DNA of 35,518 bases from Verrucomicrobia subdivision 6 bacterium. Its GTDB lineage: Bacteria; Verrucomicrobiota; Verrucomicrobiia; Methylacidiphilales; Verrucolacustridaceae. The position numbers and the translations under genes are program-made. The notes beneath the pieces are model-generated. The model was not told where the DNA came from. It was given only the letters and a program-made list of their open reading frames with translations, and did not search any database. Shown here piece after piece: positions 2,242 to 35,518 of this stretch. How positions within the stretch are numbered: the stretch's first letter is position 1; each line of letters starts with the position of its first letter. The stretch spans positions 1 to 35,518 of the forward strand of contig CANIEM010000017.1 of NCBI GenBank assembly GCA_947466515.1. The letters run 5' to 3'.

Positions 2242-2256
2242 CTTAATAAATCTCCG

Positions 2257-2280: not shown

Positions 2281-2291
2281 TAATTGTATAA

Positions 2292-3974: not shown

Positions 3975-3983
3975 ATTTGATCT

Positions 3984-4007: not shown

Positions 4008-4044
4008 GCTGTGTCGGCAGGAAATCGATCGATGAAAAGATGTA

Positions 4045-5972: not shown

Positions 5973-6366
5973 TATATTTTGTTAGGTGGAATTTCATCAA
6001 TTTACAATAAAATGCATGACACACTGCAGAGGAAGTTATTTGTATTTCATTGAAAGGTAATGATTAATCTCAAAAAATAGCCATAAGAGGATACGCAAGC
6101 GCCCCGTCCTTTAAAGGTAAAGCAAAGCAATGATCATTAATAAAATACACCATTAATAATTACTAATCCGGCACTTGAAAAAATACAAACTTGTGCTACT
6201 TATTTACTTTATATGGGATTGGTAGTGTCATGATATTGAACGATCAGATCACTTTTGTATTACCCTGTCTGTCAATTGCCAATGCAGTTTCGTCGCTAGT
6301 TCCCATCGCTCATTCTTTAATGAGGCCAAGGCCTAAAATTTAACAATATAAAAAAATAATCGATCT
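5973..6366. promoter_or_regulatory. AT-rich divergent intergenic region
   Basis: This 394-base region separates the minus-strand barrel gene from the plus-strand FecR/YDG gene and should hold both promoters. Visible elements are the palindrome AATGATCATT (6129-6138), direct repeats ATTAATAA at 6136-6143 and 6152-6159, the CTTGAAAAAAT motif at 6174-6184, and AGGCC-AA-GGCCT (6323-6334) 32 bases before the ATG. No small gene or known riboswitch is recognised. The leader ends in A/T-only sequence with no Shine-Dalgarno. Confidence 0.6.
6174..6197 (+). promoter_or_regulatory. Promoter-like motif shared with the PEP-CTERM gene
   Basis: The core CTTGAAAAAAT (6174-6184) is identical to 2257-2267. 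The following 13 bases (ACAAACTTGTGCT) match the other site at 9 positions. TTGAAA at 6175-6180 could be a -35 element, but a convincing -10 is not seen. If this is the promoter, the leader of the FecR/YDG mRNA is more than 150 bases long. Confidence 0.4.
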
Positions 6367-11023: not shown

Positions 11024-11060
11024 TTCAGGAATTGATTCCGGATGTTTTTATGCAAAACAG

Positions 11061-11066
11061 TATAAT
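11061..11066 (+). promoter_or_regulatory. Possible -10 element TATAAT before the giant gene
   Basis: A perfect TATAAT lies 95 bases before ATG 11161 in the AT-rich part of the spacer. No good -35 is found at 16-18 bases upstream; TTGATT at 11032-11037 is too far away. The remainder of the spacer (10990-11160) contains only the G-tract motif and no gene. Confidence 0.25.
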
Positions 11067-11160
11067 CCTAAGTCATTTTTAGTTAGGGCCTTATGATAGG
11101 AGTGACTTTTGTTGAACAGTGGAATTACTCTGATGGTCAAAGATTTAGACTGAATTAAAG

Positions 11161-14100
11161 ATGAGATATAGAAAAGAGGACCTGCGTAGGGGGGTGGTCG
11201 ACGTAGTTACGTCGGGCGCAGGAGATATATATATTCCCGTTGGTGGAAAGGCACAGGTGGAAGGAGGAAGAAGTAGGGGTTTGCGGGGGTCCGTTTTGGG
11301 CTTGGCGTTAAGTTTCGGGTTCTTGGCTAGTGCCTATCCACAGGCGGCGAATCAGACCGCGTTTAAGTCGGCTGGAGGAACGACCTGGACCGTGCCGGCC
11401 TATGTCACACGCGTGGATGTGCTGGTGGTGGGTGGTGGTGGAGGGGGTGGATCGTTTGGAGGAGGAGGCGGCGCGGGAGGATTAATTTATAAGAATGACG
11501 TGGTGGTGGCACCCGGAACCTCTATTGGAGTGACGGTCGGCGCAGGTGGAGCAGGTGGTCCTGTTAATGGCGGCAACGGCACCACATTGATGCCGTATGG
11601 ATCGAACGGTGCTGACTCTGTTTTTGGAACACTTACCGCATTGGGTGGCGGTGGGGGAGGATCGCGAAAGAATTATGCCGCTTATGCAGGACAACCTGGC
11701 ATGCCGGGTGGGTCAGGCGGTGGCGGTGGCCAAAATAACACTGCTGCAGCGGGACAAGCAGAAGGTGGGGCCTCTCTCCAATCGGCCACTGCTTCGGGTG
11801 GATACGGAAATGCAGGTGGCAAGGGTAAGTACGGGAACTCCGGCGTGCCTAATCACGGTGGAGGTGGAGGTGGTGGAGCCGGTTGGCCGGGACGGGCTGT
11901 GGTGGAGAATAGTGGGGGATTCGGCGGTATCGGTGGAGACGGACTTTATGTTCCGCAGTTCTCCACTTTGGGCGATAGCGGTTGGTTTGCCGGTGGTGGT
12001 GGAGGAATCATTTACAGTGACGGGCAGCAAGCCAACTACGGCGGGCGTGGTGGTGGAGGTCGAGGTGGATGGTCTAGTGCCACGGCCTTCGATGGATCAG
12101 CGGGCACATCCAACACAGGAGGTGGAGGAGGAGGCGGACGTGATTCAGTATCCGGCTTTGCGGGTGGATCGGGTGTGGTGGTGGTGGACTATTCGCCTCG
12201 CCTGACTGCCAACCTTCCCACCGACGGCTTTTATCACACCACGGGAACCGCTTCCGATGCGAAGGGAATTACCGTCACCGCTTACAACCTAATGGGGAAC
12301 ATCACGGTGTATGCTCCGACGGGTTATGAGGTCGCGGCCACCTCCGGCGGTTCCTACGTCTCCACACTCACCCTCACGCCCAACTCTGGGGTGGTCAGTA
12401 CCACATGTTATGTCCGGATTGCCGCCGCCACGATTTTTGCGAATCCGACGGGAACGGTCACCCTCTCCACCTCCGGTCTGGCCAACACCAGCGTGGATCT
12501 GAACGTGTTCCGGCTGGTCTTCACGAATGTTGGAAACAACAACTTCACCATGCCTTCCCACGTCTCGAAGGTGGATCTGTTGGTGGTGGGCGGTGGCGGG
12601 GGTGGAGGAACGGATATGGGCGGTGGCGGTGGAGGAGGTGGAGTCATCTATCAGCAGGACTACGACGTCGTTCCTGGCACGCAGTACAAAGCGGTGGTGG
12701 GAGTGGGTGGAAGGGGTGGACCAGCGGGCGCTTCTCCGGTGCAGGTCGGGGAGAACGGAGGGAACTCGCAATTTGGAAATGGAAGTGCAGTCCTGACCGC
12801 CATTGGAGGCGGAGCGGGAGCGAGTGGACATCGTGGTGATGCCGGTGGAGCGACCGTTTCCGCAAGGTCGGGCGGATCGGGTGGAGGGGCCTCAGGCGCT
12901 GGAGCAAACCGTAGTGGTGGCGTGGCCGCGGCTGGAACAGCGGGCCAAGGATTTGCGGGCGGCAACAGCGGTGGTGACTGGTATTCGGGTGGTGGGGGAG
13001 GTGCGGGTGGAGCGGGAAGCAATAATCCGGGCAACGGTGGACCCGGTTTGCTGGTTCCGATTTTGGGTCGTGATCTTTACTGGGGCGGTGGTGGCGGTGG
13101 CGGCGGGTATAGTGGTAATGGAGGAAACGGAGGTATCGGAGGTGGTGGTGGCGGCGCTATCGGCACAACTTACGGAGGAGCGGGATTGAACAACGGACAG
13201 CCGGGTGGTGGTGGAGCTACCGCCAGTTGGGCGCTGACTCCGGGCGGACACGCGGGTGCGAACACGGGCGGAGGCGGTGGTGGTGCGTCTTACTGGGCGG
13301 CGGGCACCGGCGGCTACGGCGGATCGGGCATCGTCGTGGTGAACTATGCGCCAATGCTTTTCTATGCGAACGGACTGGCGTTGCCTTTCACCCACGTGGC
13401 CAACACGCCTTCGACCGAGCAGGGACTTCCCATCTCCGGTAATAATCTGATCGGCGAGGTGAAGGTGACACCTTCTTCCGGTTACGAGGTCTGCACCACC
13501 GCCAACGGCACCTACCAGTCCGGCACGCTCTCCGTGGTGCCGACGAACGGAACGCTCAACACCACCGTGTACGTTCGGATCGCGGCGGCCACGGCTCAAT
13601 CCTCACCCGCCGGGGTTCTGACCGTTTCCGCTCCGGGTCTGCCCGACCGTCAACTCCTCTTGAATCAGGGTGAAATACACGCCGGCCTTTGGAACAGTGG
13701 TTACTTCACAATCCCGACGCTGACCGGCTCGCAACTAAGCGGAGACATCACAATCGAGGCCTGGATAAATATTCAGAGCTATGAGAATTGGGCGAGGATT
13801 GTGGATATCGGGAATAGCGCAGGAACGGATAATATTCTTCTAACGCAGAACTACACGACCGGGAAAATCAACTTTACCGTATTTGGCGGAGCGAGTGGAA
13901 CTACTGCGGTCGAGGTTAATACAGACAGCGCCATCCCGCTCCAGACCTGGACTCATGTGGCTGGGGTAGTGGAGGCAAACGGAAATCTCAAGCTGTACAT
14001 CAACGGCGTGCTGGTGAAGAGCAACACCCAGACAGCGATTTTGCCACGGGACCAGACCCGGTTCAGTAGCTTCATCGGAAAGAGTAACTGGTCGGGTGAT

Positions 14101-17100
14101 GCCCTGTGGAACGGTCGAATCACCGACGTGCGACTCTGGAACGTGGCCCGGACCCAGGCCGAGATCCAGGCGGGCATGGCGATCGGATCGATTTCCGGTT
14201 CAGCCGCCGGGCTGACGGCCTGTTATCCAATGGGCTCAACCGGGCAGTCGCCCACGGATGATGTGAGCGGCAACAACTACAACCTCGCGCAGAACAGCAG
14301 CGTGCAGTATGTGAAGCAGCAGAGTCAGACCGCCTCTTTCGGAGATGGGAGCCAGTCCCTGACCTTGGGGGAGACGCTCTCCGGGACTTCGCAACTTTAT
14401 CTGGGTAGCGGAACGTTGAGTCTGCCGGAGTGCTGGTATGAGGTGCCGTCTACCGCGGTGATTGGCGGAGATCTGACGCTCGAAGGATGGGTCTATCCCA
14501 CCCGCTTTACCGATTGGGTGCGGATGTTTGATTTTTCCACCAGTGCCAGCGTTGGTAACGGTGGAACCCAGTACTTGGGTATGGCGGTATGCGGTTCTGC
14601 TGGCACGACTGGTCCGGCGTTCTGGGTGCTGGGCGCGAATGGGACGCAGTACGACATCACTTCCAGCACGGCTCTACCGCTCAACGCATGGAGCCATATT
14701 GCCGGTGTTTTGGAGAGCGGGGGAACGATGCGTCTTTATGTGAACGGAGTGCAGGTGGGCACGGCCACGGCCGCCAGCATGCCGCCGAGCGTCACTCGGG
14801 CACGGAGCTATATCGGGAAATCGAACTGGGCGATTGAGGCGCTCTATCAGGGATCGATGCGGGATCTCCGGATCTGGGATGTAGCCCGGACGGCCGCCCA
14901 GATTCAGGCGGGGATGACGCTGGGTTCGGTCACCGGGTCGCAGACTGGGTTGGTGGCCTGCTATCCAACGGGTCTTACCGGGCAGAGTTATCTGAAGGAT
15001 GCCAGTGGCAATAGCAGAGATCTCGTGCAGATGGGGGAGACCCAGTTTGTGGAGAATGGGATTTATTTCCCCGGCTCCAACCAGCATTCCAGCGGGACCG
15101 AGGTTTTTAATAGCACGTTGGAGACGACCACTGCCGTTGCTTTGGGAACCGGTTATCTGGGGTTGAAGGGGACCCTGCGCTACACGGGCACCAGCACGGA
15201 GACGACCAGCCGGGCACTCTGGGCTGATGTAAACGGAACTGGGGCGACGTTCGACATCGTCAACGCCAACGCGAACCTGATCTTTAACGCCACGGCCGGA
15301 ACGGTGAATCAGACCTTCACCAAGAACGGTGCTGGAAAGTTGACGTACTCGGGTAGCAGTGGTCCAACGATCACGGGGAACGTGGTGGTGAATGGAGGGA
15401 CGTTGGCCTTAGGCGGAAAATCGGACATTGCCGCCGGTGGTACCTGGACGGTGAACAACGCCACGATCCAGAATACGATCAACTCAACGCAGACCATTCT
15501 CGGGAGGCTAACCCTGAATGGTGGGACTCTTTCCTCCACCGCAACCAGCCCCGATTCTACTTACGGGGATTTTTACCTGCGGAATAACGGGGCAGCGGTC
15601 ACTACCACGGGCGACACCACTTCGGTCATTGGCGCCAACTTCAATATGGAAGGCGGGCATGATTTTGTTGTGGGAAATGGTGCGGCCGCAATCGACTTGG
15701 ACGTTACGGGCCGGCTTTCTAATAAGGATGGTTATGCTTGGGGCCTGATACGTAAATATGGGGATGGCACCATGCGGATCCGGGCCGGCGGAAACAATAC
15801 GGCCGGCACCGACATCCGTGGTGGGGAGGTGATCTTCGGGACCGGCGGGCTGGGAAATGGAATCAGTGGGCAGATGTGGAAGGTGGGTTTCTATGGCAAC
15901 AGCACCCTGACCTGGGATGTGGGGAACACCGAAGACGTTACCGTGGGCTCCAGTGCCGGGGCATTTGTGGAAGACGGGGTGACAGCCACCCTGAACACCG
16001 GTGCCAATAACGTAACCTTGTCGAGTGCGTTCAGCGTGGGTTCTTCCCAGACCGGGGCGATTACGAAGAAAGGGAGTGGGACGCTGACGATCGGCGGGGC
16101 GAACAGTTATAAAGGGGACACCACCATTCTGGAGGGGACGTTGGCGACTTCGGGAACCAGCAAGATTTCCGATTCTTCGGCAGTGGTCCTGGGGAGCGGG
16201 ACCACGTTCCGTCTTGGCGGAGATGAGTTTGTGCGTAAGTTGTCCGGTTCGGGAGACGTCCAGTTGCAGGGCAACTGGCTGGGGTTTGGCGATAGTTCGA
16301 ACGAAACGTTGAGCGGGACCTTCTCTGGATCGGGGGGAAGGATTGCGAAATACGGTAGTGGTACGGTCACCTTGACGGGGAACAACACCTTTAACGGCGG
16401 GGTGGAATTTTACGCGGGAATTCTATCGGCCAGTTCGCTGGCGAATTTGGGCGGAACAACCGGCTATTTTGGATTGCACAGCGGAACCCTGCAGTACACT
16501 GGCACGGGAAGTGAGACGCGGACGGGAGCGATGTGGAATGATCAGGCGGGCAAGGATGCCTATATCGACATCACCAGTGCCACGGCCAACCTGACCCTGA
16601 ACGCGACCAGTGGGACGAGAAACCAGAGCGTCAACAAGAACGGGGCGGGGACGTTGACCTTGAATGGTGGCGGTTGGACGGGCGGGTCGGCGGTGAATGT
16701 GAATGCCGGAAAACTGGTGACGACAGCGGCCAACATGCTCTCGGATGCCGCAACGGTGACGATTGCGAGCGGAAGCACGGTGGACTTGGGCGGGGCAGAG
16801 ACGATCGGTGCTTTGGCCGGGGCGGGGAACATCAGTCTGGGATCGGGTCGGTTGACCACGGGCGGAAACAACGCGACCACGAGTTACAGTGGCATCATCA
16901 CCACGACTGGTGGAATGACTAAGACTGGTTCCGGCAACTTCACCCTGACTAAGGGCCAGAACTACACCGGTTCAACCATCATTTCCAGCGGTTCCACCGC
17001 TTATGAAACGATGGGGACCCTTTCTCTTGCGAATACTTCCGGACCGGCTCTCTACGTAGGCACGACCGGGACGGTCAGCATCAACGGAGGAGGTATCCTT

Positions 17101-20100
17101 CATACCCGTGCGGCGAACCAGTTGGGGTCGAATGTCACGCTTCGATTCGATGTCGGGACCGGCAACGCCTTTTTTAATTTAATGGGCAACAACCAGACGA
17201 TCGGAAACCTGGAGATCGGGGCGAATCCCTCCGAGGCGGTTATCCAGAACACGCAGAACGAGACCGGCTTCGGTAACTCCATTCTTACGGTCAACCAGAC
17301 AACCGACGCGACCTACTCCGGCTACTTCCGAAACGGGACCTCGGGAACGATCGGACTGGTGAAGGAGGGTTCCGCCAACCTGACACTTACCGGTAATCGG
17401 ATCAGCTACAGCGGCGGAACTACCGTGAATGCGGGGACGTTGACCTTGGGCGGAATGACGACCGATGGTTATGGGACGATCCGTGGGACGGTGACGGTGA
17501 ACAGCGGGGCGACGCTGAACTATATCAACGCTTCAGGTGACAAGTATTCCGGTGCTCACTCCTTCGGATGGGATAACGGGATCTCGGTCAACACTCTTAA
17601 CATCAACGGCGGAACGGTGGGAGGGGCGGACCTTTCGAATCATTTCTGGGGTGGCGGCACCTTCACGATGAACATGACCGGTGGAGAGCTGAAATTGGGC
17701 GGAGGTCAGAATCCGACCCAAACGTTGAACTTCAACGTGCTTTCCAGTAGTAGCCAGGCGAAGGTGTCCGCGGTCACGGCCAGCGGTTCCCTCGCGCTGG
17801 ACGGAACGGCCACCTTTAACGTGGCGGACGGTTCGCAGGATGTGGATTTACTCGTTTCTTCGGCGCTATCCACACGCAACACCAGTGGCCGGGTGAATAA
17901 GACCGGCACCGGAACGATGCGAATGACGGGCACGGGCACCTATACCGTGGGAACCTGGGTGCAGGGTGGGGTTCTGGAAATTAACAACAGCAGTGCTTTG
18001 GGATCCGGGGCCCTCGCAGTCGAGGGCGGAACTTTGCGGTATCTGGGTTCGGGAACCGACACCAGCAGCCGGGTGTTCTGGCAGAATTATTCCGACGGCA
18101 CTTTTGATATCGTGAATGCGTCAGCCAACCTGACTTTCAACAATACAACGGGCAATCAAGGTGTAAGCGGATCCAAGATCACTAAGGTGGGTGCGGGTCA
18201 GCTGACCTTGGGGAATGTGAATCTGGCGAGTGGAGCGGTTGTCTCGGCCGGGACGTTGCAACTGGGATCCAGCGCCGGGAACGGAAATGCCGGGGGCAAT
18301 ATTTCCGTGGCGAGCGGATCGACCTTGAAATATTACACTGCAAACACGGGTTGGATCCCGCTGGGCAACTCTATCTCCGGAGCGGGGAATCTGATTTTTG
18401 AAGGCAATGGAAACATGGGGGTTGGGGATTTTGGTATCAGTCAAAACAACAGCGGATTCAGCGGACCGACCTCCATCAACAGTGCCCGGGTTTGGTTGAC
18501 CCATGGAAGCGGACTCGGCACCGGAACTGTGACAGTCGGAAGTGGGGCAGCGTTGGCGGTGGAGAACGTGACGTTTAACAACTCCATTTCCATCGCCGGC
18601 AATGGTTGGTGGGAAAGTTCAGGAAATCTGGGTGCGATCCGTTTCGCCGGCACCACCGGCAACGTGGCGGGACCGGTGACCATGACGGATAGCGCACGGG
18701 TTACCGTTTACGGTGGTTCAGAAATCGGGACGATTTCCGGAGTCATCTCCGGTTCTGGTAAAAACCTGTCGAAGTGGGGCTCAGGGAAACTGATTCTTTC
18801 CGGAGCGAACACTTACACCGGGTCGACAACCATCAGCGAGGGGAAGCTGACCTTGGGGGCGGCGGAGCGCTTGGCCGATGCCTCCAATCTTTCGGTGGCG
18901 GGTGGGGCGACCTTTGAGATGAGCAACTTCAACGAGACGCTGGGTTCGATCGACGGGGCGGGCACGATCAGCATGGGGAGTGGAAACCTGAAGAGCGTCA
19001 CCGCGGCCAACAGCACCTTCAGCGGGTCGATGACGGGCACGGGCGGATTCACAAAAGAGGGAACAGGGGAATTGACCTTGAGTGGGAACAACACGACCAC
19101 AGGGGCGACGGTGGTGAACGGCGGGAAGATCATCTTCTCGGGTTCGGGATCGATGTACAACAACGGGACTTCGACAGGATCCATCACGCTGAACAGCGGA
19201 ACGACTCTGCGCTTTGACCGGCAAGACGTCTTTGGCGGAGCCGATGCGAGTAGTCCCGTTGTGATCACAATCAACCAGGGGGCGCTGGTGGAAAACGGCG
19301 CGTATTTCAATAACCTGAACAATCTGACGATGAATGGTGGAGAGTTGCGGGCGAATGGAGGATCAGCCAGTGGATGGCAGGCGTATGAGCTACGCGGAAC
19401 GGTGACGGTGGGAGGGACGAGTGCATCGTCGATTACGGCCAACAGTTCGGTGAACTCGCTGAACAACATTCTATTGAGCCGCGCGGGGACGACGACCTTT
19501 GCGGTGGCGGATGTGACCGGGAGTACCGCTGCGGATTTAAATATTTCGGCCAAACTGGTGGATGCGAATGGTATTCAGGCCGGGTTGACTAAGACGGGTG
19601 CGGGAACGATGGCGCTGGCGAACAATAATAGTTACACCGGGGCCACCACGGTGAACGGGGGTGTTCTGCAGGCCGGGACGGTGAACGCCTTTGGATCCAA
19701 TTCGGCGGTAACCCTGGCCAATACACCGGGAGTGGTGCTGGATCTCTTTGGGTTTAATCAGAGCATCGGTTCGCTCTCGGGTGGCGGGGCGAATGGTGGA
19801 AATGTCACCTTGGGATCGGCCACCCTGACTACGGGTGGGCTGAATACGGATACCACTTATTCGGGGGTGATTTCCGGAACGGGTGCCTTGGTAAAGAACG
19901 GGACGGGGAACCAGACGTTGAATGGGGCCAGCACTTATACGGGCGGAACGACGTTAAATGCTGGTGGATTGACGGTGGGGAATGCGCAGGCGTTGGGAAC
20001 AGGGGCACTGACCTTTGCCGCGAACAGCACCACGCTGTACGCCGGAGCCTCGGTGACGTTGACGAACAACATCGTGCTGAACGCAAACGGAACGATCAAC

Positions 20101-29100: not shown

Positions 29101-32100
29101 CAGGTGGGTAACGGGGGAGCGACCGGAGCGATTGGGCAGGGTGCGATTACGGACAATGCGGCGCTGGTCTTCAAGCGGTCGGATGCGATCAGCTATACGG
29201 GAGCCATCACCGGGACCGGTTCGCTGACGCAGGATGGAGCTGGAATCTTGAGCCTCTCGGGCGCGAATGGATACACCGGGGCGACACTGGTTAATTCCGG
29301 CAAGCTGTTGACGGTGGGGGCGGATCGTTTGTCGGATGTAACGGCGGTGACGGTGGCGGGTGGGGCGACCTTCGGTCTGGGTGGAGACGAGAGGATTGGT
29401 TCTTTGGCCGGAGCTGGAGCGGTGCAGTTGGGTTCTTATCTGCTGACGGTTGGAGATGCGAGCACCACGAGTTTCACGGGCAATATGACTGGATTGGGCG
29501 GAATCACAAAGGTCGGTAGTGGGTTTATGACTCTATCCGGTGTTAATACATTTAAAGGAGACATGATTATATCTAACGGAACCGTTGTGTTGGATAATAC
29601 CAAAGCTTTAGATCGGTCTGTCTTCGTTGAATTGGCGGCAGGAACTAAGCTAACCATTAATCAGAATATCGTATTAGGTGCGATCGATTCTTCTGGAAGT
29701 ATCGATGGCACAGGGAAGTATGCCACTCAATATGAAGTGATTCGAACTGGTGATTATAATGCGACGCGCCAGGATTTCCTAGGCGATGCAGATTTCGCCG
29801 CATTCTCTACTGGTTTAATGAAAAGGGGCGCAGGAGAAGCGACTATTAGTGCCGCAAATACCTACACGGGCGACACAAAAGTTCAGGAAGGGACATTGAA
29901 GTTGGTGGGTGGTGGATCGTTTAACTCAGCAAGTTCCGTGATTCAGTCGGCTGGGACCGTTCTGGATCTTAATGGGAAAAGCCAAGAGTTTGCGGCTGTG
30001 AACGGGGTTGGAGGAACGATCAAGCTGGGGAGTGGAAATCTGGCGGTCGGTGGTGCGGTGAATTCGCAGTTTGACGGGGTGATCGAGGGGGCGGGCGGCT
30101 TCAACCAGAAGGGATCCGGAACGTCGACGCTGAATGGTCAGAGCACCTTCAGCGGTGCCACGGCGGTGGATGCGGGCAAGTTGGTGGTGAACGGGGCTCT
30201 CAACACCGCAGGGACGGTGACGGTAGCGGATGGCGCCAAGCTGGGCGGATCCGGCACGGTCGGAGCGATCGGTGGAGCGGGCCTGGTGGAAGCGGGGAAC
30301 AGCCCAGGAATCTTGACGGCGACGCAGGTGATTCCGACGAGTGGTTTGGATTTCAACTTTGAGCTGTTCGGATTTAACCCGGTCTACAGCAGTCCGACCA
30401 ACAGCGTGAACGACGTAGTGCGGTTGACCGGTCCGACCCCGTTCGGCAGTAGTCTGGCGGCAGCGAACGTGCTGGCGTTTTATATCGATCTTCCAGGCAG
30501 CTTTGTCTTTGGAAGCAACCAGGCGTTTGAGGGCGGGTTTTTTGCGGATCAAGGGGCCGGGCTGTTGGCGTCGGTGAAGGATGCGACGATGAACTACTTC
30601 ATCAAGGATGCCTCGGGAGCAGTTTCCTATAACGGCAACACCTATGTGAGCTTTGCGGATTACGCTAAGAAGACGGCGGGTCAGTACGATGCGGCCTTTG
30701 TTTTGTCGACGATGGACAAATCGGGCACGGCGTTCAGCGGATCGACGGCAGCCAGTGGCGCGAAGGTGATGGGATTGACGATGGTTTCCACGATCACGAT
30801 CACGCCGAATAGGAACTTGGTTTACAACGGGAGTACAAAGCCGGCCACGGCAACCTCGATCGACACTGGTGTAGTCGGATTCACCTACAGCTACGAAGGG
30901 GTGAATGGGACAGCTTATGGTCCGACCTCGACGGCTCCGCATGAGGCGGGGGATTACATGGTGACGGCCACGACGACGAACAGTGCAGACGTAAAGAAGA
31001 GCGAGAATTTCACCATCCAGAAGGCGACCGCCACGTTGGCGTGGTCGGCCCTATCGCCGATAACGTACGTGCACACCGGATTGCTAGCTGGTCAGTTGAA
31101 TGCGACGGAAACGCACTCAATTGCCGGTACGATCACGTATAGCGACAGCGTGGTGGGGTCGCTCACGGCCGGAACGGTCCTGGAAGTGGGGAGTAATGCG
31201 TTGACGGCAAACTTCGCACCGACCGACGCCCGCAACTACACAACAGCTACCGCCAGCAACACTCTGGTGGTGAGCAAGGCCGATCCAGTGATTACCTGGG
31301 GAGCTTTGACGGCGATCACTTATCCGACTGCCTTAAGTGGAACCCAGTTAGGTGCGACCGAGGCGGGGTCGGTGGCGGGATCGATGAACTACAATCAGCC
31401 GATTGGAACGGTGTTGAATGCGGGAACGCAACCGTTGCAGTTGACCTTCTATCCGACCGACACGAGAAACTACAATTCAGCAACGGCGAACAACACCCTG
31501 GTGGTGAACAAGGCGGCGGCAGTGGTGACCGTGACCTCCGCCACGGAGACCTACAACGGAATGGCTAAGAGCGTGGCGACCTCCGTGAGTCCTGCCGGGC
31601 TTTCGATGGACGTGACCTACAACGGTGCTACTCAGGCTCCCACCAATCTTGGACCTTATGCGGTGGTGGCAACGGTGACCGACCCGAACTATGTGGGAAC
31701 GGCGAACGGCACCCTCGACATCGTGTGGCCCGTCTCGTCGGCCAGCCCGACGATCACAATGACGCCTCCCGCCAACTTAGAATATGATGGAATTGCCAAG
31801 ACATTTACAGCGAGTGCCAGCAATCCGTTGAACAACGGGACTCCTCAGCTCGGATCGCCGGCTAACTTTGTCTTCGAGTATACCGGAGCAGGCGGCACCA
31901 CGTATGCAACCAGTTCGAACGCACCGACTGAAGCGGGTGATTATACGGTGAAGGTTTATCTGTATTCCGGTTCGTCGATCATCGAAACGGCCAGCTTCAC
32001 CATCGCCAAGAAGTCTTTGACCATCGGATCGGTGGTGGCGGCGAACAAGGCGTACGACGGGTTGAACAGTGCCTCGATTTCCGGGGAAAGTTTGGTCGGC

Positions 32101-35100
32101 GTAGCGGGAGCGGATGCGGTGAGCCTGGTGAGAGGGTCTGGATTTAGTTCTACCTTTGCAGACGATAACGTGGGCACAGCTAAGGCCATCACGGTGACCG
32201 GCTTTGAGCTGAGCGGGGCGAAGGCGAGTAATTACATTTTGGCCGGTCAGCCGACCGGGTTGACAGCCGATATCTCCAAGAAGCTGCTAACAGCGACAGG
32301 GCTGTCGGTTTCGACTAAGACGTATGACCAGTCGAAGGCCGCAACTTTGATCGGAGGGGGATCGATCGTCTTATCCGGGGTGGTTGCGAAAGATATTGGT
32401 AATGTCTTGGCGGATACGGCTTCGATGGTGCCGGAGTTTGTTGATGCGAATGCAGGAGCAGGCAAGGCGGTGACGTTGACAGGCTTGGCTCTGACGGGTT
32501 CGCGTTCAGGGAACTACGAGCTCAATGCCGTGAGTGGTCTGACGGGAACGATTCAGCCAATATCGGTGACGATCAGTGGAATGACGGTGGCCGACAAGGT
32601 GTATGATACGAACCGAAACGCGATAGTTTCAGGCGGAACGGTTTCGGGAGTATTGAGTGGGGATTCGCTGCAGATCGACGTCAGCGGGGCGACGTTCCTC
32701 TTTAACAACAAGGATGTGGGGGCGGCCAAGGCGGTGGCTGCCTCGGGAGTGGTCTTGGGAGGATCCGAGGCCATCAATTACGCGCTTTCGGCTCAGCCGA
32801 CCCTACCTGCGGCAAGTATCACGGCGGCGCCGTTGACGGTCACGGGATTGGCCATTGCGAACAAGATCTATGACGGTGGGACGACGGCTACCCGGACGGG
32901 GACGGCGGCGCTGAGCGGTTTGGTGGGCGGAGAAACTCTGGTGCTGGGTGGGACGGTGACGGCCAACTTTAATGACAAGAACATTGGGACAGGCAAGGCG
33001 GTGGTGGTGAGTGGATATACAGCCAGTGATTTGGGTGCATCCAAGGCCTCCAATTATGCCTTAAGTCAGCCGAGCGGACTGACGGCAGATGTTACGGTGA
33101 AGAGTCTGACGGTTACTGGGGCGGTGGCGGCCAACCGAGAGTATGATGGAACGGATTCGGTGCAGGTGACGGGCGGAACTTTGGTCGGCGTCATCGGGGT
33201 GGAGGATGTCCAACTTCGGACGAATGCAGCCTCCTTTGCGGATGCGGATGCCGGAACAGGCAAGATCGTGGCGAATACCGGATTTAGCCTCTCCGGACCT
33301 GATGCGGGCAACTACCAACTCACGTTGCCCACCCTCTCGGCCGATATCACGCAGAAGAACCTTTATGTGACAGGATTGGTGGCCGACAATAAAGTCTACG
33401 ACCGGACGACGACCGCGACCTTGAGTGGGACGCCTGTGCTGAGTGGATTGGTGAGTGGAGAAACTCCAGGCTTCGGGACGTCCTACACGGCTAACTTCAG
33501 CACGAAGGCGGTTGGCACGGGCAAGCCTGTCACGGTCACTGGATATACGGTGGCGGATTCCGCTACCTTCAAAGGGTCGAATTATCAGTTAGTTCAGCCG
33601 AGTGGGTTGACCGCGGACATTACGCCATATCAACTTTCCTTGTCTGGTCTGGGCTCTCTAAGTAAGGCCTATGACGGAACCCGGACGATTGCGATCTCCG
33701 GCCATACGATGGGAGGAAAGCTCGGTGCGGATGATGTGAACCTCGCCGGAACGCCGAGCGGATTGTTTAACGATCCGGTGGTGGGAAATCCAAAAGCGTT
33801 GGCGGTAACGGGGTTGACACTGACGGGAGGTGATGCGGCGAATTACACACTGACGTCTGCGCTCAGTACTACTGGGGCGATTACGGCCAAGGCGTTGACG
33901 GTGGTAGGAATGTCGGCCCAGATCAAAACCTATGACGGCAGTGCGGGGGTCACTCTGATTGGCGGAACACTCGTGGGGGTTGAGGCGGGGGATACGGTGA
34001 CTTTGGTGGGACCTGGAACGGGTACCTGTGCGGATGAAAATGTGGGCCTGAATAAGGTAGTGACGGTTACCGGATTGAGTTTGAGTGGGGCGGATGCTTC
34101 GAAGTACACCATGGTACAGCCCACGGATGTGAAGGCCCAGATTGATCCGGCTCCAGTGACGCTGACTGGGGTGGCGGCTACGACTCGGGCTTACAACGGT
34201 GCGGCAGACCGAAGTGTGGCGATTACTGGGGGAACCTTGAGCGGAGTATTGGCAGGGGATAATGCGGCAGTTTCCCTAAACCAGTCGGGCCTGAGTGCGC
34301 TTTACACGGATGGAAATGTGGGGACCGGCAAGGCGGTGGCGATCACGGGGTTGACCCTATCCGGGGCTAAAGCCGGCAACTATTCGTTGGCTCAACCCGC
34401 CTACGTGACGGGTGACATTACGCCCAAGACACTGGCTGTGGCCGGGGTGGCAGTGGCCAACAAGGTTTACAACAGCAGTGTGAACGCAACTCTCACGGGA
34501 ACAGCCGCTCTTGGGGTAGGGGTTGTGGGGGCGGATAGCGTCAACGTGACCTTGGTGACGAGTTCGGCCACGGCAGTGTTTGCCGATGCACTGCCTGGTA
34601 GCGGAAAGCCGGTGACGGTGAGTGGTTACTATCTCTCGGGTTCGGCTCTAGCGAACTACAGCGTGCAGCAACCGTCCGGATTGACGGCCGATATCACGGG
34701 CGTGACTTTGACGATTTCTGGCGCGACGGCGGCAGACAAGAGCTACGACGGCAACGACGTTGCCACGGTAAGTGGCGGGGTACTGGTCGGGGTAGTTTCC
34801 GGGGATGCGGTGACTTTGAGTGGGTCGGCAACGGGCACGTTTAACAACCAGAGCGTGGGGACAGGCAAGGCAGTGGCCGTGACCGGTTATACTTTGAGCG
34901 GCTCGGATGCGGGTAAGTATAGCCTTAGTCAACCGAGCCTGACCGCCACTATTGCGGCCAAGCCCTTGACCGTTACTGGTCTGTCTGCTCTGGATAAGAG
35001 CTACGACCGATCAACTTCAGCCACCATGACGGGAACGGGTGTGTTGGTGGGTAAGGTGGGAGCTGAAGTGGTCAATCTTGATGCAAGCTCGGCAACAGCC

Positions 35101-35518
35101 TCTTTTGCGAATTTTACGGCGGCATCAGGTAAGATTGTAACCGGAAGCGGGTATGGCCTGAGCGGCACAGATGCCGGCAATTACAGGCTCGTCCAACCCA
35201 CGGCCACCGCGACCATCAGCCGAAAGATGCTCACGTTGAGTGGTCTGAGTGCTGCCAACAAGACGTATAACCGGAATACTTCAGCCACTATCAGTGGGAC
35301 AGGAACCTTGGTGGGGATTGAGCTGGGCGATACGGTGACTCTCGATTCAAGCGGGGCCTCGGCAGGTTTTGCCTCGGCCGCTGTGGGAACGGGCAAGATA
35401 GTGACCGGAGCTGGATATCTTTTGGCTGGAGCGGATGCCGGAAATTACGATCTAACTCAACCCACGTGGACGGCAGATATCAATGGAATCGTGCTAACGA
35501 TCAGTGGGATCTCGGCGG
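11161..35518 (+). CDS. Giant multidomain surface protein (Gly-rich, LamG, autotransporter repeats, MBG, YDG); 3' end outside window
   Basis: One uninterrupted frame of at least 8119 codons, still open at the right edge. From ATG 11161, residues 1-40 are hydrophilic. A signal-peptide core GSVLGLALSFGFLAS ends PQA near residue 62. A glycine-rich domain (about 72-345, opening TWTVPAYVTRVDVLVVGG) is followed by an Ig-like domain to 447, a second glycine-rich domain (449-730) and a second Ig-like domain (to 830). Two LamG-like domains occupy 834-1054 and 1070-1304. About forty autotransporter-associated beta-strand repeats (KxGxGTLTLxGxNTYTGxTTVxxGTL) fill about 1310-6390 and end with GNSPGILT. 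MBG-like modules come next (about 6540-6950), then thirteen YDG repeats plus the start of another. It is predicted to be a long extracellular beta-rich fibre. The anchor or transporter domain is not in view. The true start may be GTG 11257 or TTG 11281. Confidence 0.93.
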   Translation, partial: MRYRKEDLRRGVVDVVTSGAGDIYIPVGGKAQVEGGRSRGLRGSVLGLALSFGFLASAYPQAANQTAFKSAGGTTWTVPAYVTRVDVLVVGGGGGGGSFGGGGGAGGLIYKNDVVVAPGTSIGVTVGAGGAGGPVNGGNGTTLMPYGSNGADSVFGTLTALGGGGGGSRKNYAAYAGQPGMPGGSGGGGGQNNTAAAGQAEGGASLQSATASGGYGNAGGKGKYGNSGVPNHGGGGGGGAGWPGRAVVENSGGFGGIGGDGLYVPQFSTLGDSGWFAGGGGGIIYSDGQQANYGGRGGGGRGGWSSATAFDGSAGTSNTGGGGGGGRDSVSGFAGGSGVVVVDYSPRLTANLPTDGFYHTTGTASDAKGITVTAYNLMGNITVYAPTGYEVAATSGGSYVSTLTLTPNSGVVSTTCYVRIAAATIFANPTGTVTLSTSGLANTSVDLNVFRLVFTNVGNNNFTMPSHVSKVDLLVVGGGGGGGTDMGGGGGGGGVIYQQDYDVVPGTQYKAVVGVGGRGGPAGASPVQVGENGGNSQFGNGSAVLTAIGGGAGASGHRGDAGGATVSARSGGSGGGASGAGANRSGGVAAAGTAGQGFAGGNSGGDWYSGGGGGAGGAGSNNPGNGGPGLLVPILGRDLYWGGGGGGGGYSGNGGNGGIGGGGGGAIGTTYGGAGLNNGQPGGGGATASWALTPGGHAGANTGGGGGGASYWAAGTGGYGGSGIVVVNYAPMLFYANGLALPFTHVANTPSTEQGLPISGNNLIGEVKVTPSSGYEVCTTANGTYQSGTLSVVPTNGTLNTTVYVRIAAATAQSSPAGVLTVSAPGLPDRQLLLNQGEIHAGLWNSGYFTIPTLTGSQLSGDITIEAWINIQSYENWARIVDIGNSAGTDNILLTQNYTTGKINFTVFGGASGTTAVEVNTDSAIPLQTWTHVAGVVEANGNLKLYINGVLVKSNTQTAILPRDQTRFSSFIGKSNWSGDALWNGRITDVRLWNVARTQAEIQAGMAIGSISGSAAGLTACYPMGSTGQSPTDDVSGNNYNLAQNSSVQYVKQQSQTASFGDGSQSLTLGETLSGTSQLYLGSGTLSLPECWYEVPSTAVIGGDLTLEGWVYPTRFTDWVRMFDFSTSASVGNGGTQYLGMAVCGSAGTTGPAFWVLGANGTQYDITSSTALPLNAWSHIAGVLESGGTMRLYVNGVQVGTATAASMPPSVTRARSYIGKSNWAIEALYQGSMRDLRIWDVARTAAQIQAGMTLGSVTGSQTGLVACYPTGLTGQSYLKDASGNSRDLVQMGETQFVENGIYFPGSNQHSSGTEVFNSTLETTTAVALGTGYLGLKGTLRYTGTSTETTSRALWADVNGTGATFDIVNANANLIFNATAGTVNQTFTKNGAGKLTYSGSSGPTITGNVVVNGGTLALGGKSDIAAGGTWTVNNATIQNTINSTQTILGRLTLNGGTLSSTATSPDSTYGDFYLRNNGAAVTTTGDTTSVIGANFNMEGGHDFVVGNGAAAIDLDVTGRLSNKDGYAWGLIRKYGDGTMRIRAGGNNTAGTDIRGGEVIFGTGGLGNGISGQMWKVGFYGNSTLTWDVGNTEDVTVGSSAGAFVEDGVTATLNTGANNVTLSSAFSVGSSQTGAITKKGSGTLTIGGANSYKGDTTILEGTLATSGTSKISDSSAVVLGSGTTFRLGGDEFVRKLSGSGDVQLQGNWLGFGDSSNETLSGTFSGSGGRIAKYGSGTVTLTGNNTFNGGVEFYAGILSASSLANLGGTTGYFGLHSGTLQYTGTGSETRTGAMWNDQAGKDAYIDITSATANLTLNATSGTRNQSVNKNGAGTLTLNGGGWTGGSAVNVNAGKLVTTAANMLSDAATVTIASGSTVDLGGAETIGALAGAGNISLGSGRLTTGGNNATTSYSGIITTTGGMTKTGSGNFTLTKGQNYTGSTIISSGSTAYETMGTLSLANTSGPALYVGTTGTVSINGGGILHTRAANQLGSNVTLRFDVGTGNAFFNLMGNNQTIGNLEIGANPSEAVIQNTQNETGFGNSILTVNQTTDATYSGYFRNGTSGTIGLVKEGSANLTLTGNRISYSGGTTVNAGTLTLGGMTTDGYGTIRGTVTVNSGATLNYINASGDKYSGAHSFGWDNGISVNTLNINGGTVGGADLSNHFWGGGTFTMNMTGGELKLGGGQNPTQTLNFNVLSSSSQAKVSAVTASGSLALDGTATFNVADGSQDVDLLVSSALSTRNTSGRVNKTGTGTMRMTGTGTYTVGTWVQGGVLEINNSSALGSGALAVEGGTLRYLGSGTDTSSRVFWQNYSDGTFDIVNASANLTFNNTTGNQGVSGSKITKVGAGQLTLGNVNLASGAVVSAGTLQLGSSAGNGNAGGNISVASGSTLKYYTANTGWIPLGNSISGAGNLIFEGNGNMGVGDFGISQNNSGFSGPTSINSARVWLTHGSGLGTGTVTVGSGAALAVENVTFNNSISIAGNGWWESSGNLGAIRFAGTTGNVAGPVTMTDSARVTVYGGSEIGTISGVISGSGKNLSKWGSGKLILSGANTYTGSTTISEGKLTLGAAERLADASNLSVAGGATFEMSNFNETLGSIDGAGTISMGSGNLKSVTAANSTFSGSMTGTGGFTKEGTGELTLSGNNTTTGATVVNGGKIIFSGSGSMYNNGTSTGSITLNSGTTLRFDRQDVFGGADASSPVVITINQGALVENGAYFNNLNNLTMNGGELRANGGSASGWQAYELRGTVTVGGTSASSITANSSVNSLNNILLSRAGTTTFAVADVTGSTAADLNISAKLVDANGIQAGLTKTGAGTMALANNNSYTGATTVNGGVLQAGTVNAFGSNSAVTLANTPGVVLDLFGFNQSIGSLSGGGANGGNVTLGSATLTTGGLNTDTTYSGVISGTGALVKNGTGNQTLNGASTYTGGTTLNAGGLTVGNAQALGTGALTFAANSTTLYAGASVTLTNNIVLNANGTINTPTSLTLTENGIISGTGSLTKAGAGTLVLGGQNTFSGGTLLNAGTLSFGSTDALGSGSLTFVSNSVIQATANLNITNRIAINSGVTGTFDYGNYAMTNSGVISGAGSFIKSGNGSLSLTATNTFTGSMQINSGTVDFGSTGSVTPSTVFLGYATSDRGLMKVQTGNTLTISSSTGMIIGQDGSGALYQSGGTINVTGATGAENFMIGRNAGSYGYYNLSGGSVSLAELGVGSYAGGNGIMDVTGGTLTTTQYFLPGRSDSVANQKASVNLLGGTVNVNNARGVWMNVSGGAGKYTVMSVENGAALNIGSGGGIDMNYAGSGGSVLNLNGGLTKTASIGVSSTSGTQYLNFNGGTVQATAGSSTFFNGIDRITINSGGAKIDSGGNSIGTSLALEAPTGKGLAGISVTDGGDGYIGSPFVNISGGGGSGATARAVVDPVTGKVTSIVVTNPGSGYTSAPTITLTQGGFTRLATLGTAILSDNISGGLTKQGAGTLTISGQNTYTGETTVEAGTLQFNSVSGTYTYSGSTVNIGNGATAQISGDRYDFNQKTFLFGTNGNGTLLNTAGNFVNRANTFRTSGGARNQINNSGAAFFNFDSGINTFDVVRGTDASSDLTVNAVMANAGSVLKTGNGILTLTAQNTYVAGTTVDAGTLVLNDSWNFSPSWPGIGVVRGNLTINQGATVALRGTGAGALGWTAGSQVTNLVINGGLLDGYNTNVDGRQLIWNITGGVNLTGGQMRMNNGVSSTTTSNYWEWGNTAVNTFASADSSEISGRVNIRTDSSSTISFNVADGAAASDLIVSAAITQSAAGGAITKSGAGVMLLSGTNLYTGATTVNGGTLRAGSNAAFGSNSAMTLANTVGAILDLAGFNNSIGSLAGGGSAGGNVTMGSANLTVGGDNSSTSYSGSISGTGGLVKNGSGTQTLTTANSYTGGTTLNAGGLTIGHGSALGTGNVKFATAGAKLNAGATVTLTNNVELNANGTINTPNSFNLTASGIVSGTGSLTKEGTGTLTLLGTNSYSGGTVMTSGTVALGNASAMGTGPVSVTGTSTNLALASMTLTNNYAMSSGRTGVMDSGVYTVTMDGVISGQGNFGKQGTGMVILTKDNSWSGTTTISSGTVQIGNGGSSGTLGSGTGAVVNNGTLVFNRSGTNVIANTISGTGTLIQEGPGELQLTAVNTYTNTIVNNGSLRLTAGGVAGALRGTLTINENGLVIADAHDALGYYAGGVSQKIDTLNIFGGTLRDIYNSDNLTLDGVAITMRAGLIETVTSSAQGRIDLYAGQSASTFRSLASSNTAEWRGNLRLRENQTMTVFTIEEGAAATDFLLSANVVNMDYSGNLSAGKGVTKAGAGLMQMSGSNAYSGSTIVSGGILQAGSTTAFGNKSAVTLSNVAGTTLDLNNFNVTIGALSGGGTIGGNVVLGSGNLTVGADGGTGSFGGVISGTGTVTKTGVGNETFTGANTFTGVFTQNGGVTILANPSGPALFNGQGGDIVIGNSGSSGSYSTLRMGAANQLGTNVNVTFGANATSSSYGTLDLMGYNLSIGNLNMNGNTAQAHIQNSQSLGYSGNSILTVNQTTNGSFNGLMRDYAGSGSGTLAFVKNGAANLTLTGGGMSYTGGTTVNAGTLFLGGMVTDGQGTIRGVVTVNSGATLNYTNAPGDRYAGAHSFGWTTGQAVNVLNINGGTVGGADIANHFYGSNTGGADVFTLNMTGGELKLGGGDNPTSTMNINVLSSSNQAVISKVTANSALTIDSKATFTVANGSQDVDLLVSGNLNQRNSNIGKVEKQGAGTMLLSGSNTYSGTTVVGGGVVRAGSTNALGNNSSVTLSNLAGVTLDLNGFNNRIGALSGGGSTGGNITLGNGTLTVGANNETGTYGGVISGNGGFVKVGQGRQTLTSGQLYSGDTAIYGGYLKLAVTNGPALYSDGRGGTVVLGNDRSGPAAGIGNFTFLEMGAKNQLGTNINVAFNVTNRWSYMVLMGYDQEIGNLTMSGPNPDWAVIENGENTSVSGVVATSSTLTVNQSLNTTYNGYMRDGWAGGTLALTKKGAGTLTIVATNVDYTGGTKVMEGRLAVQAGSLGGSSSANQVFINTNAVLEYNLTNAPGFGSGVIQKGATISGAGTLEKTGQGTLIFGGSGQVNIAMDAGSWINLNEGDIKAHNCVQANWENNKASLFVNTNSTFWQVEGNVTVGALAGAGNIKLGYDWPNFKPVMKIGYGDASSEFSGQISEYTASGAKGILTKIGKGTQTFSGTNNVINGDLTVNDGIMNFGTTGKFTANALWVGNLAGSRGRVDVQTGNKLTTLANTDRYGVVLGDNGGAGAMYQNGGVVDINALASINNFMIGKSAGSFGHYGLDNGYLELTEFGIGSGSGGNGVLEVRGGTIKTTDYFLVSRGDSGTGQNGSVNLLGGAIQVDNGGANTGADLAFNIGFPGGSGKTSVMTVANDALLSVNNRGINLNYNGGNSTGILNLNGGNTKTAYIRSTDTTGNQFLNFSGGTLTATAANANFISGVDRVTINQGGAKFDTAGFNVTIGQSMQAPAGKGLSSVAIANGGSGYIAPPIVEISGGGGTGATGYAEIDRVTGAVTNIVISNPGNGYTTPPTVVLKQGGFITTATVGLVGLADNVSGGITKQGNGELLLTAGNTYTGATVVEKGTLKAGVANSAFGITSAMVLSNVANVLVDLNGNNQTIGSLAGGGSTGGTVSLGANTLTMGTDNTSTSYAGTITGSNGQLIKTGTGNQTLAASNSYTATTTVNGGTLTLTANNALGTVAGGVTVASGATTDFKNVTYSTAEAMGLNGGTIANSSATSLFAGNITLGANSFANVTGTALTLSGAISGAYDLTKTGSGALILTGTGVQTATTISQGTLQLGAAGTTGWVSGNVINNAALVLDRSNDDTLGGVVSGTGTLEKKGANTVTLTGANSYGGLTTITAGTLQVGSGAGVGSLGTGDVANSGMLTFNRTGLLNYAGKITGTGSLTKLAAGTVVLTGDSTFSGGTTITSGILQVGNGGATGAIGQGAITDNAALVFKRSDAISYTGAITGTGSLTQDGAGILSLSGANGYTGATLVNSGKLLTVGADRLSDVTAVTVAGGATFGLGGDERIGSLAGAGAVQLGSYLLTVGDASTTSFTGNMTGLGGITKVGSGFMTLSGVNTFKGDMIISNGTVVLDNTKALDRSVFVELAAGTKLTINQNIVLGAIDSSGSIDGTGKYATQYEVIRTGDYNATRQDFLGDADFAAFSTGLMKRGAGEATISAANTYTGDTKVQEGTLKLVGGGSFNSASSVIQSAGTVLDLNGKSQEFAAVNGVGGTIKLGSGNLAVGGAVNSQFDGVIEGAGGFNQKGSGTSTLNGQSTFSGATAVDAGKLVVNGALNTAGTVTVADGAKLGGSGTVGAIGGAGLVEAGNSPGILTATQVIPTSGLDFNFELFGFNPVYSSPTNSVNDVVRLTGPTPFGSSLAAANVLAFYIDLPGSFVFGSNQAFEGGFFADQGAGLLASVKDATMNYFIKDASGAVSYNGNTYVSFADYAKKTAGQYDAAFVLSTMDKSGTAFSGSTAASGAKVMGLTMVSTITITPNRNLVYNGSTKPATATSIDTGVVGFTYSYEGVNGTAYGPTSTAPHEAGDYMVTATTTNSADVKKSENFTIQKATATLAWSALSPITYVHTGLLAGQLNATETHSIAGTITYSDSVVGSLTAGTVLEVGSNALTANFAPTDARNYTTATASNTLVVSKADPVITWGALTAITYPTALSGTQLGATEAGSVAGSMNYNQPIGTVLNAGTQPLQLTFYPTDTRNYNSATANNTLVVNKAAAVVTVTSATETYNGMAKSVATSVSPAGLSMDVTYNGATQAPTNLGPYAVVATVTDPNYVGTANGTLDIVWPVSSASPTITMTPPANLEYDGIAKTFTASASNPLNNGTPQLGSPANFVFEYTGAGGTTYATSSNAPTEAGDYTVKVYLYSGSSIIETASFTIAKKSLTIGSVVAANKAYDGLNSASISGESLVGVAGADAVSLVRGSGFSSTFADDNVGTAKAITVTGFELSGAKASNYILAGQPTGLTADISKKLLTATGLSVSTKTYDQSKAATLIGGGSIVLSGVVAKDIGNVLADTASMVPEFVDANAGAGKAVTLTGLALTGSRSGNYELNAVSGLTGTIQPISVTISGMTVADKVYDTNRNAIVSGGTVSGVLSGDSLQIDVSGATFLFNNKDVGAAKAVAASGVVLGGSEAINYALSAQPTLPAASITAAPLTVTGLAIANKIYDGGTTATRTGTAALSGLVGGETLVLGGTVTANFNDKNIGTGKAVVVSGYTASDLGASKASNYALSQPSGLTADVTVKSLTVTGAVAANREYDGTDSVQVTGGTLVGVIGVEDVQLRTNAASFADADAGTGKIVANTGFSLSGPDAGNYQLTLPTLSADITQKNLYVTGLVADNKVYDRTTTATLSGTPVLSGLVSGETPGFGTSYTANFSTKAVGTGKPVTVTGYTVADSATFKGSNYQLVQPSGLTADITPYQLSLSGLGSLSKAYDGTRTIAISGHTMGGKLGADDVNLAGTPSGLFNDPVVGNPKALAVTGLTLTGGDAANYTLTSALSTTGAITAKALTVVGMSAQIKTYDGSAGVTLIGGTLVGVEAGDTVTLVGPGTGTCADENVGLNKVVTVTGLSLSGADASKYTMVQPTDVKAQIDPAPVTLTGVAATTRAYNGAADRSVAITGGTLSGVLAGDNAAVSLNQSGLSALYTDGNVGTGKAVAITGLTLSGAKAGNYSLAQPAYVTGDITPKTLAVAGVAVANKVYNSSVNATLTGTAALGVGVVGADSVNVTLVTSSATAVFADALPGSGKPVTVSGYYLSGSALANYSVQQPSGLTADITGVTLTISGATAADKSYDGNDVATVSGGVLVGVVSGDAVTLSGSATGTFNNQSVGTGKAVAVTGYTLSGSDAGKYSLSQPSLTATIAAKPLTVTGLSALDKSYDRSTSATMTGTGVLVGKVGAEVVNLDASSATASFANFTAASGKIVTGSGYGLSGTDAGNYRLVQPTATATISRKMLTLSGLSAANKTYNRNTSATISGTGTLVGIELGDTVTLDSSGASAGFASAAVGTGKIVTGAGYLLAGADAGNYDLTQPTWTADINGIVLTISGISA
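11181..11222 (+). promoter_or_regulatory. Nested hairpin over the first codons of the giant gene
   Basis: The outer arms CCTGCG (11181-11186) and CGCAGG (11217-11222) enclose the near-palindrome CGACGTA-GT-TACGTCG (11199-11214). It lies between ATG 11161 and the alternative in-frame starts GTG 11257 (preceded by GGAAAGG) and TTG 11281 (preceded by AAGGAGGA at 11261-11268). This fits a structured leader better than coding sequence, but the frame is open throughout. Confidence 0.4.
11374..13350 (+). repeat. Duplicated glycine-rich plus Ig-like units of the giant protein
   Basis: Two glycine-rich domains (11374-12190 and 12505-13350) both open with a W/F-T-V/M-P-x-HVxKVDxLVVGGGGGGG type strand and close with SGxVVVxYxP. 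Each is followed by an Ig-like domain of about 100 residues with NLxGxxxVxxxxGYEV and TxxYVRIAAAT (12196-12500 and 13351-13650). The glycine-rich coding DNA consists largely of GGT/GGA/GGC runs, giving strong local G bias on the plus strand. Confidence 0.8.
13660..15070 (+). repeat. Two LamG-like (concanavalin-type) domains of the giant protein
   Basis: Copies at about 13660-14320 and 14370-15070 share GDITIEAWI / GDLTLEGWV, then ALPLNAWSHIAGVLE-type and LYVNGVQVGT-type strands, SYIGKSNW, then DVRLWNVARTxAxIQAGM and a closing GL-x-ACYP-x-G. This is the LamG/Laminin-G-3 pattern. In other surface proteins such domains bind glycans or proteins. The ligand here is unknown. Confidence 0.82.
17041..17950 (+). 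repeat. Module A, copy 1 (others at 24535-25500 and 25846-26310)
   Basis: Encodes GPAL, then AANQLG, NLMGNNQTIGNL, SILTVNQTT, SYSGGTTVNAGTLTLGGM, GTIRGTVTVNSGATLNY, AHSFGW, LNINGGTVGGAD, NMTGGELKLGGG and GSQDVDLLVS in this order. Copy 2 keeps every one of these blocks with small changes, and copy 3 keeps the first third. This is a segmental duplication within the gene, far longer than one beta-strand repeat. Confidence 0.8.
19585..20283 (+). repeat. Module C, copy 1 (other at 22537-23229)
   Basis: A unit of about 230 residues containing YTGATTVNGG, AFGSNSA-x-TLANT, GFN-x-SIGSL, YTGGTTLNAGGLT, GASVTLTNNI and LNANGTINTP. Copy 2 aligns end to end with almost equal length (693 against 699 bases). 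Its first half recurs in looser form near 24133, 25440 and 27960. Confidence 0.78.
20497..21645 (+). repeat. Module B, copy 1 (other at 26878-28056)
   Basis: A unit of about 385 residues in order: VQTGN, GALYQSGG, NFMIGRNAGSYGYY, GVGSYAGGNGIMDV, ASVNLLGG, LNLNGGLTKTA, QYLNFNGGT, GGAKIDSGG, then a 60-residue inset with GGDGYIGSPFVNISGGGGSGA and NPGSGYTSAPTITL, ending in a standard repeat. The copy at 26878-28056 matches block by block. Confidence 0.8.
30781..32010 (+). repeat. MBG-like Ig modules of the giant protein
   Basis: Four to five modules of about 75-95 residues with ITPNRNLVYNGSTKP, GAxEAGDYxVxAT, ITY-x-T-x-LSGTQLGATE, FxPTDxRNYxxATAxNTLVVxKA and YNGMAKSVATSVSP. These match the MBG family of repeated extracellular beta-sandwiches that commonly precede YDG arrays. 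They link the beta-helix block to the YDG array. A short non-repetitive region (30331-30780) lies before them. Confidence 0.7.
32011..35518 (+). repeat. Array of at least thirteen YDG repeats (continues past the window)
   Basis: The motif aromatic of successive modules begins at 32053, 32323, 32602, 32869, 33142, 33397, 33670, 33931, 34192, 34468, 34744, 35002 and 35266, a period of 85-93 codons. A fourteenth module begins at the edge. Several motifs are degenerate (YDQ, YDT, YDR, YNS, YNR) while the rest of each module is well kept, ending in NYxLxQPxGLTADIT. Confidence 0.88.

Follow-up and report, generated by a model that had tools for sequence, protein, structure and literature searches.

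A giant PATR-YDG surface-type protein without an autotransporter barrel in a Verrucomicrobiota genus

Introduction

Huge proteins of more than 5,000 amino acids are frequent in the PVC superphylum, which has a high propensity for them (PMC11573180), and the giant open reading frames (ORFs) of the Omnitrophota reach 39,678 aa (PMC10066038). The gene described here resembles the published huge bacterial surface proteins in that it is a single ORF of more than 5,000 aa, built of repeats, apparently exported and carried by a member of the PVC group. Giant PATR proteins are already known, and the present one is a large example of that kind.

Other described systems share parts of its design. With the PATR/TIGR02601 autotransporters (type Va secretion; IcsA, Ag43, ShdA) it has in common the PATR repeats, a sequence match to IcsA and a predicted beta-helix; with the FHA-type exoproteins it shares a long beta-helix and arrays of repeats, and the genus possesses real two-partner secretion (TPS) pairs. 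The end of the protein recalls the PEP-CTERM and T9SS tails, in which exported proteins that are otherwise unrelated share a short module confined to the C-terminus.

The giant gene and its 3' end

The window that we analysed is the whole of contig C17 (35,518 nucleotides) from the source genome G000, a draft of 2.06 Mb in 84 contigs that is 88% complete. The initial annotation had described a frame open from position 11161 to the last base without a stop, and this is confirmed: the ORF (11161..35517, + strand) begins with ATG and continues for 8,119 codons, where the chance of an equally long open run at the local base composition is about 10^-124. Over most of the frame the G+C content at the third codon position is unlike that at the other two, the pattern of coding DNA. 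As the window spans all of C17, and its last base (35518) is the contig end, the truncation of the gene at this point is genuine.

11161..35518, + strand: giant ORF, 8,119 codons in the window, then 679 codons on contig C69 to the stop

A search of the whole source genome for YDG repeats found them within C17, in a complete 2,030-aa gene on contig C1, and on C69, which is the sole other contig end in G000 to carry them. The array enters C69 from the contig end, and the open frame there closes at a stop after 679 codons. No direct sequence overlap was found between the ends of C17 and C69, and independent evidence for the join was therefore required. A second species of the genus (G002) has the orthologue as a single uninterrupted ORF of 9,093 aa on a 45-kb contig (C66). 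Residues 1-8119 from C17 align to residues 1-8403 of this orthologue with 65.6% identity, and residues 1-678 from C69 align to residues 8407-9092, its last 686, with 70% identity, the next-best register giving 45%. Three residues of the orthologue fall between the two pieces, and the reading phase is compatible with a gap of about 7 bases. The YDG matches number 13 on C17 and six on C69, and the resulting 19 are also the count in the G002 orthologue. By orthologue alignment, phase and YDG count, C69 was found to carry the predicted 3' end of the giant gene, and the stop codon that lay beyond the initial annotation's view is thereby reached.

The full gene, of about 26.4 kb or 1.3% of the draft genome, is predicted to encode a protein of ~8,801 aa (~870 kDa, pI about 5), with eight cysteines in the part on C17. 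It is fair to count it, as the initial annotation did, among the larger bacterial protein genes, although far longer ones have been published (39,678 aa, Omnitrophota; PMC10066038). The giant is one intact coding sequence, selected in at least two species.

Domain architecture

The domain order is a Sec-type signal, two Gly-rich plus Ig-like units, two LamG domains, the PATR region, MBG_3, 19 YDG repeats and two Ig-like C-terminal domains. The features in the window are as follows.

11371..12192, + strand: Gly_rich_2 domain 1, then an Ig-like unit (aa 71-344; Pfam)
12508..13350, + strand: Gly_rich_2 domain 2, then an Ig-like unit (about aa 450-730; second PF21722 stretch, borders read from sequence)
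13696..14169, + strand: Laminin_G_3 (ConA-like) domain 1 (aa 846-1003; PF13385, E 1.9e-55 for both copies together)
14428..14910, + strand: Laminin_G_3 domain 2 (about aa 1090-1250; second PF13385 stretch, borders approximate)
15148..30840, + strand: PATR / TIGR02601 repeat region of about 5,200 residues (~1,330 to 6,560), predicted beta-helix
31519..31722, + strand: MBG_3, the best of two (PF18887)
32008..35466, + strand: YDG array, 13 in the window; a 14th breaks off at the contig end, with its remainder on C69, for a total of 19

In the C17 part, Pfam recognizes Gly_rich_2 twice, Laminin_G_3 twice, PATR, MBG_3 twice and YDG thirteen times. The previously proposed domain list, with its binding-type domains at the N-terminus, is supported by these matches and recurs in the G002 orthologue; the general description as a giant surface-type protein is likewise supported. 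The two Gly-rich plus Ig units of that list are upheld in their Gly-rich parts; the Ig-like units gave no Pfam match in the giant, and their assignment comes solely from a resemblance to the repeated domains of an endonuclease-bearing protein of 1,812 aa that the same genome encodes (G000:C19). The giant is built almost wholly of known extracellular beta domains, its MBG and YDG repeats being of Ig type.

The PATR region yields 32 significant Pfam stretches in four tiles (3+14+11+4), and TIGR02601 also matches; weak local matches to a ShdA model were seen as well. A tile of 601 aa matches the solved passenger of IcsA (E 3.3e-6). For this tile, AlphaFold gave a model of low confidence (pLDDT 58.5), and in a Foldseek search with this model autotransporter passengers top the list, with no match at E<=0.001. 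The earlier proposal of a PATR beta-helix of about 5,000 residues thus gains from the similarity to the IcsA passenger but not from the tile model, and we regard the predicted beta-helix as supported by family membership and sequence similarity, not by a good structural model.

Start, leader and signal peptide

The sequence around the annotated start is unusually conserved, and the following features are relevant to where translation begins.

11030..11232, + strand: conserved leader, ~130 nt 5' of the ATG plus codons 1-24, holding the palindrome CGACGTAGTTACGTCG
11257..11259, + strand: possible alternative GTG start, codon 33, which would yield an ordinary signal peptide of ~30 residues
11290..11346, + strand: hydrophobic core of the signal peptide with a putative cleavage region (VLGLALSFGFLASAYPQA), identified in the translation and conserved across the three species

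The leader, present as a single copy in the G000 genome, has 90-92% nucleotide identity in G002 and in a third species (G004) over 233 nt. Within codons 1-24, 22 of the 24 are identical in the three species, the average for windows of this size being 6.8; a second window, at codon 374, is equally conserved. The G002 version of the palindrome deviates in the loop alone. An Rfam scan returned nothing at gathering score, a weak snoRNA match in the leader being dismissed as far below the cut-off; the leader RNA folds no better than shuffled sequences (z -0.36), and no promoter or terminator consensus was found near the start of the giant.

In the alignment, all three species have a purine-rich, Shine-Dalgarno-like stretch 5-6 nt upstream of the GTG at 11257, and the true start may be this codon 33 instead of the ATG at 11161. 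Because of the codon conservation and the GTG with its Shine-Dalgarno-like stretch, we suggest that codons 1-24 may be a leader, possibly untranslated and regulatory, or may be coding under an extra constraint. The core of the Sec signal, VLGLALSFGFLASA, was identified by inspection; it follows a basic stretch, lies at about residues 44-58 and is conserved in the three species.

Export and the C-terminal module

An autotransporter barrel, a PEP-CTERM motif and a T9SS tail had each been named as anchors that the unseen 3' end might hold; our searches found none of them there, but a different C-terminal module instead. The barrel family PF03797 is absent from the giant, including the C-termini on C69 and in G002, and from 21 congeneric genomes, in a search that detected the family in its controls, E. 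coli and Caulobacter. Since neither C69 nor the G002 tail has it, a barrel at the 3' end is rejected. Measured against type Va secretion, the protein has the Sec signal and a predicted beta-helical passenger with PATR-type repeats, but not the C-terminal beta-barrel. The PEP-CTERM motif (PEP-TM-basic) is absent from the tail, so the giant is not read as a PEP-CTERM substrate, and T9SS tail models gave no match to 23 tails.

The final ~70 residues make up a module for which Pfam and NCBIfam have no family, with the approximate consensus F-x-I-x-F/W-x-x-x-P-G-x-x-Y-x-V-Q-x-x-x-x-L-x-x-x-x-W ... F-Y-R-x-x-x-x-P-stop. They match other ORFs in 19 of the 62 genomes of the order, in frames between roughly 100 and 9,097 codons long, of which some are cut by contig ends. 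In all 20 further matches inspected the module is at the extreme C-terminus, within a few residues of the stop; one match that ends 24 residues short is partial, and its leftover tail also fits. The owners include ORFs recognized by eye as amylase-like and sulfatase-like, and a hydrophobic signal segment stands at the beginning of several owners. No Pfam, NCBIfam or PDB entry matches the members consistently, and no paper naming the module was found in the open-access literature. The 178-residue C-terminus of the giant is modelled as all-beta, Ig-like domains without a membrane segment (pLDDT 76.8), and this model has generic Ig-like structure matches only, with low TM-scores. A second giant, of 4,209 aa, is encoded in G002 (locus L086, contig C28, 7291-19917, - strand) and combines PATR, fn3, Big and MBG domains with the same C-terminal module.

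As it is strictly C-terminal on unrelated exported proteins, the module resembles a sorting signal, and we infer that it serves in sorting or attachment. A more far-reaching idea is that the Verrucomicrobiota have an undescribed outer-membrane pathway for export or attachment in which this module is the sorting or anchoring signal, a pathway that would handle giant beta-helical fibres and ordinary secreted enzymes alike and would replace the autotransporter barrel; this is possible, and we advance it tentatively.

The occurrence of the same module at the ends of soluble-type enzymes (amylase-like, sulfatase-like) would also fit a protein that is released and not cell-bound, a matrix or shield component of a biofilm or sheath, perhaps cleaved between the beta-helix and the YDG array, with the module as its secretion signal. 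The giant's C-terminus has no lipobox, transmembrane anchor or PEP-CTERM, which is in keeping with release, and secretins, found in 19 of the 21 genomes, make it conceivable that folded proteins leave by a type II-like route. Known type II cargo sizes, however, are ill-suited to a beta-helix of ~870 kDa, and we consider release rather unlikely.

Two-partner secretion, in which a TpsB (ShlB-type) pore of the genome would export the giant in the way of FHA-type adhesins, many of them with long beta-helices, appears very improbable. ShlB-family genes do occur in G000 (C67) and in six other congeneric genomes, but each of the TpsB loci that we read adjoins an exoprotein gene of its own, and none lies beside the giant in the flanks of the window, C69, G002 or G004. 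The giant also lacks the TPS domain PF05860, which the same library detects in an exoprotein of G002 (C75), and with the TpsB genes paired to their own partners this route is rejected.

Searches for further machinery gave only weak matches, below cut-off, to the HlyD-family adaptor TIGR01843 in the 21 draft genomes; no RTX repeat family was reported by Pfam in the giant, and a search for SprA gave no match in the 21 genomes and none in its controls either. Gene position links the giant to no secretion or anchoring machinery.

Genomic neighbourhood, spread and divergence

Directly upstream of the giant is a gene that combines a FecR domain with YDG repeats.

6367..10989, + strand: upstream partner gene, 1,540 aa, with signal peptide, FecR, eight YDG and a C-terminal region of ~450 aa without a Pfam family

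It occupies the same 5' position in G000, G002 and G004 (L060), all three species in which the start of the giant is assembled, and its C-terminal ~450 residues are 93% identical in G004. The two genes are linked by gene order alone. A 264-bp tandem duplication (8555-9085; two copies, 79% match) lies in the YDG array of the upstream gene. Further upstream in the window, two adjacent ORFs of 270 and 368 aa on the - strand (4057-5972) have no Pfam or NCBIfam match, with ORFs of similar size at the same place in G004, and a small PEP-CTERM protein is encoded next to dusB (2292-2888), so that the genome makes exosortase-type substrates, the giant not being among them. On the 3' side the neighbour is an LptE-like gene in G000 and gyrB in G002 and in a further species, G013. 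Since the downstream genes differ between species, the 3' flank is not conserved, and no conserved operon beyond the upstream FecR-YDG gene backs an export route.

In G004, the N-terminal 2,386 codons of the giant are present up to a contig end, the first 1,350 residues being 84% identical. Several other congeneric species have the end of such a gene at a contig end, and the absence of the gene elsewhere may for this reason reflect fragmentation. In G013 (C55, locus L088), a homologous PATR-YDG stretch is broken over three frames, which may mean that the gene is decaying in some species or may stem from assembly or sequencing errors. Of the 62 genomes of the order, 42 have ORFs with PATR repeats; the matches listed include PATR frames of 6,192-6,285 codons in three genomes of another family, and the giant is the longest of those listed. 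Two public records carry the same-genus locus: CAJBOM010000053.1, from an uncultured Verrucomicrobia (isolate Loc080925-7m), and JASGCJ010000008.1 (L066), whose title, Candidatus Paceibacterota, contradicts the genus placement and is probably wrong.

At four-fold degenerate sites, agreement between G000 and G002 differs between blocks, from 24% to 92%. Over residues 2584-4383 (window 18910-24309), G000 is 91-97% identical to G002 in amino acids and 69-92% identical at four-fold sites, against about 30-60% in much of the remaining gene. Because this block is far more alike than its flanks, the mosaic divergence suggests recombination or conversion inside the giant gene.

That the frame is an assembly artefact, with several smaller YDG/PATR genes collapsed or joined into one, is extremely improbable and is rejected in view of the intact orthologue in the second species: YDG arrays do break contigs in the genus (between C17 and C69, and at contig ends in several further species) and the gene sits in a draft genome that is 88% complete, but G002, a separate assembly, has the same domain order across 9,093 aa on one contig and is collinear over the full length, the divergence between G000 and G002 is spread along the gene at synonymous sites, and the internal repeats are old, with three DNA self-matches only, at most 70% identical, which makes the collapse of near-identical copies unlikely.

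Discussion

Taken together, our data make it likely that the giant is a Sec-exported surface fibre of ~8,801 residues, attached at its C-terminus and with its LamG/Gly-rich tip pointing outward. The initial interpretation is partly supported, and we read the protein as a probable long surface fibre, one end of which carries sugar-binding-type domains. We propose that it would cross the inner membrane via Sec, be displayed at the surface by an outer-membrane route and stay attached near its C-terminus, where the short Ig-like module would act as the sorting or attachment signal. The PATR helix and the YDG array would then project the tip as far as about 180-200 nm from the cell. With ~22 aa per 0.48-nm rung, the 5,200 aa of the PATR region would account for about 110 nm, and 19 Ig-size domains of ~3.5-4 nm each for the rest; the regular helix and the fibre length are predictions, since the PATR tile model is poor (pLDDT 58.5). 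The tip may bind glycans or neighbouring surfaces, as is common for LamG/ConA-like domains, and the giant may thus have a role in adhesion or shielding.

The gene provides a complete giant surface protein, verified across species, in a genus with small genomes. As long PATR stretches occur here without an autotransporter barrel, the name 'autotransporter-associated repeat' should not be taken to mean 'autotransporter'. The module, present on many exported proteins of the order, offers a handle on the display of large proteins, and if it is indeed a sorting signal, barrel-less display becomes directly testable.

Compared with the published huge proteins, the giant is shorter, consists of well-annotated domains, has an intact congeneric orthologue and has no predicted transmembrane helices noted. 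It differs from the type Va autotransporters in lacking PF03797, in being 5-10 times longer, and in carrying LamG and Gly-rich domains in front of the PATR region and YDG repeats behind it, and from the FHA-type exoproteins in having neither a TPS domain nor an adjacent TpsB. Unlike the PEP-CTERM and T9SS tails, its module matches none of the models for these tails, has no hydrophobic helix and is predicted to adopt an Ig-like beta fold. New relative to these systems are a complete gene checked across species, a PATR region of about 5,200 residues with no barrel behind it, and the C-terminal module.
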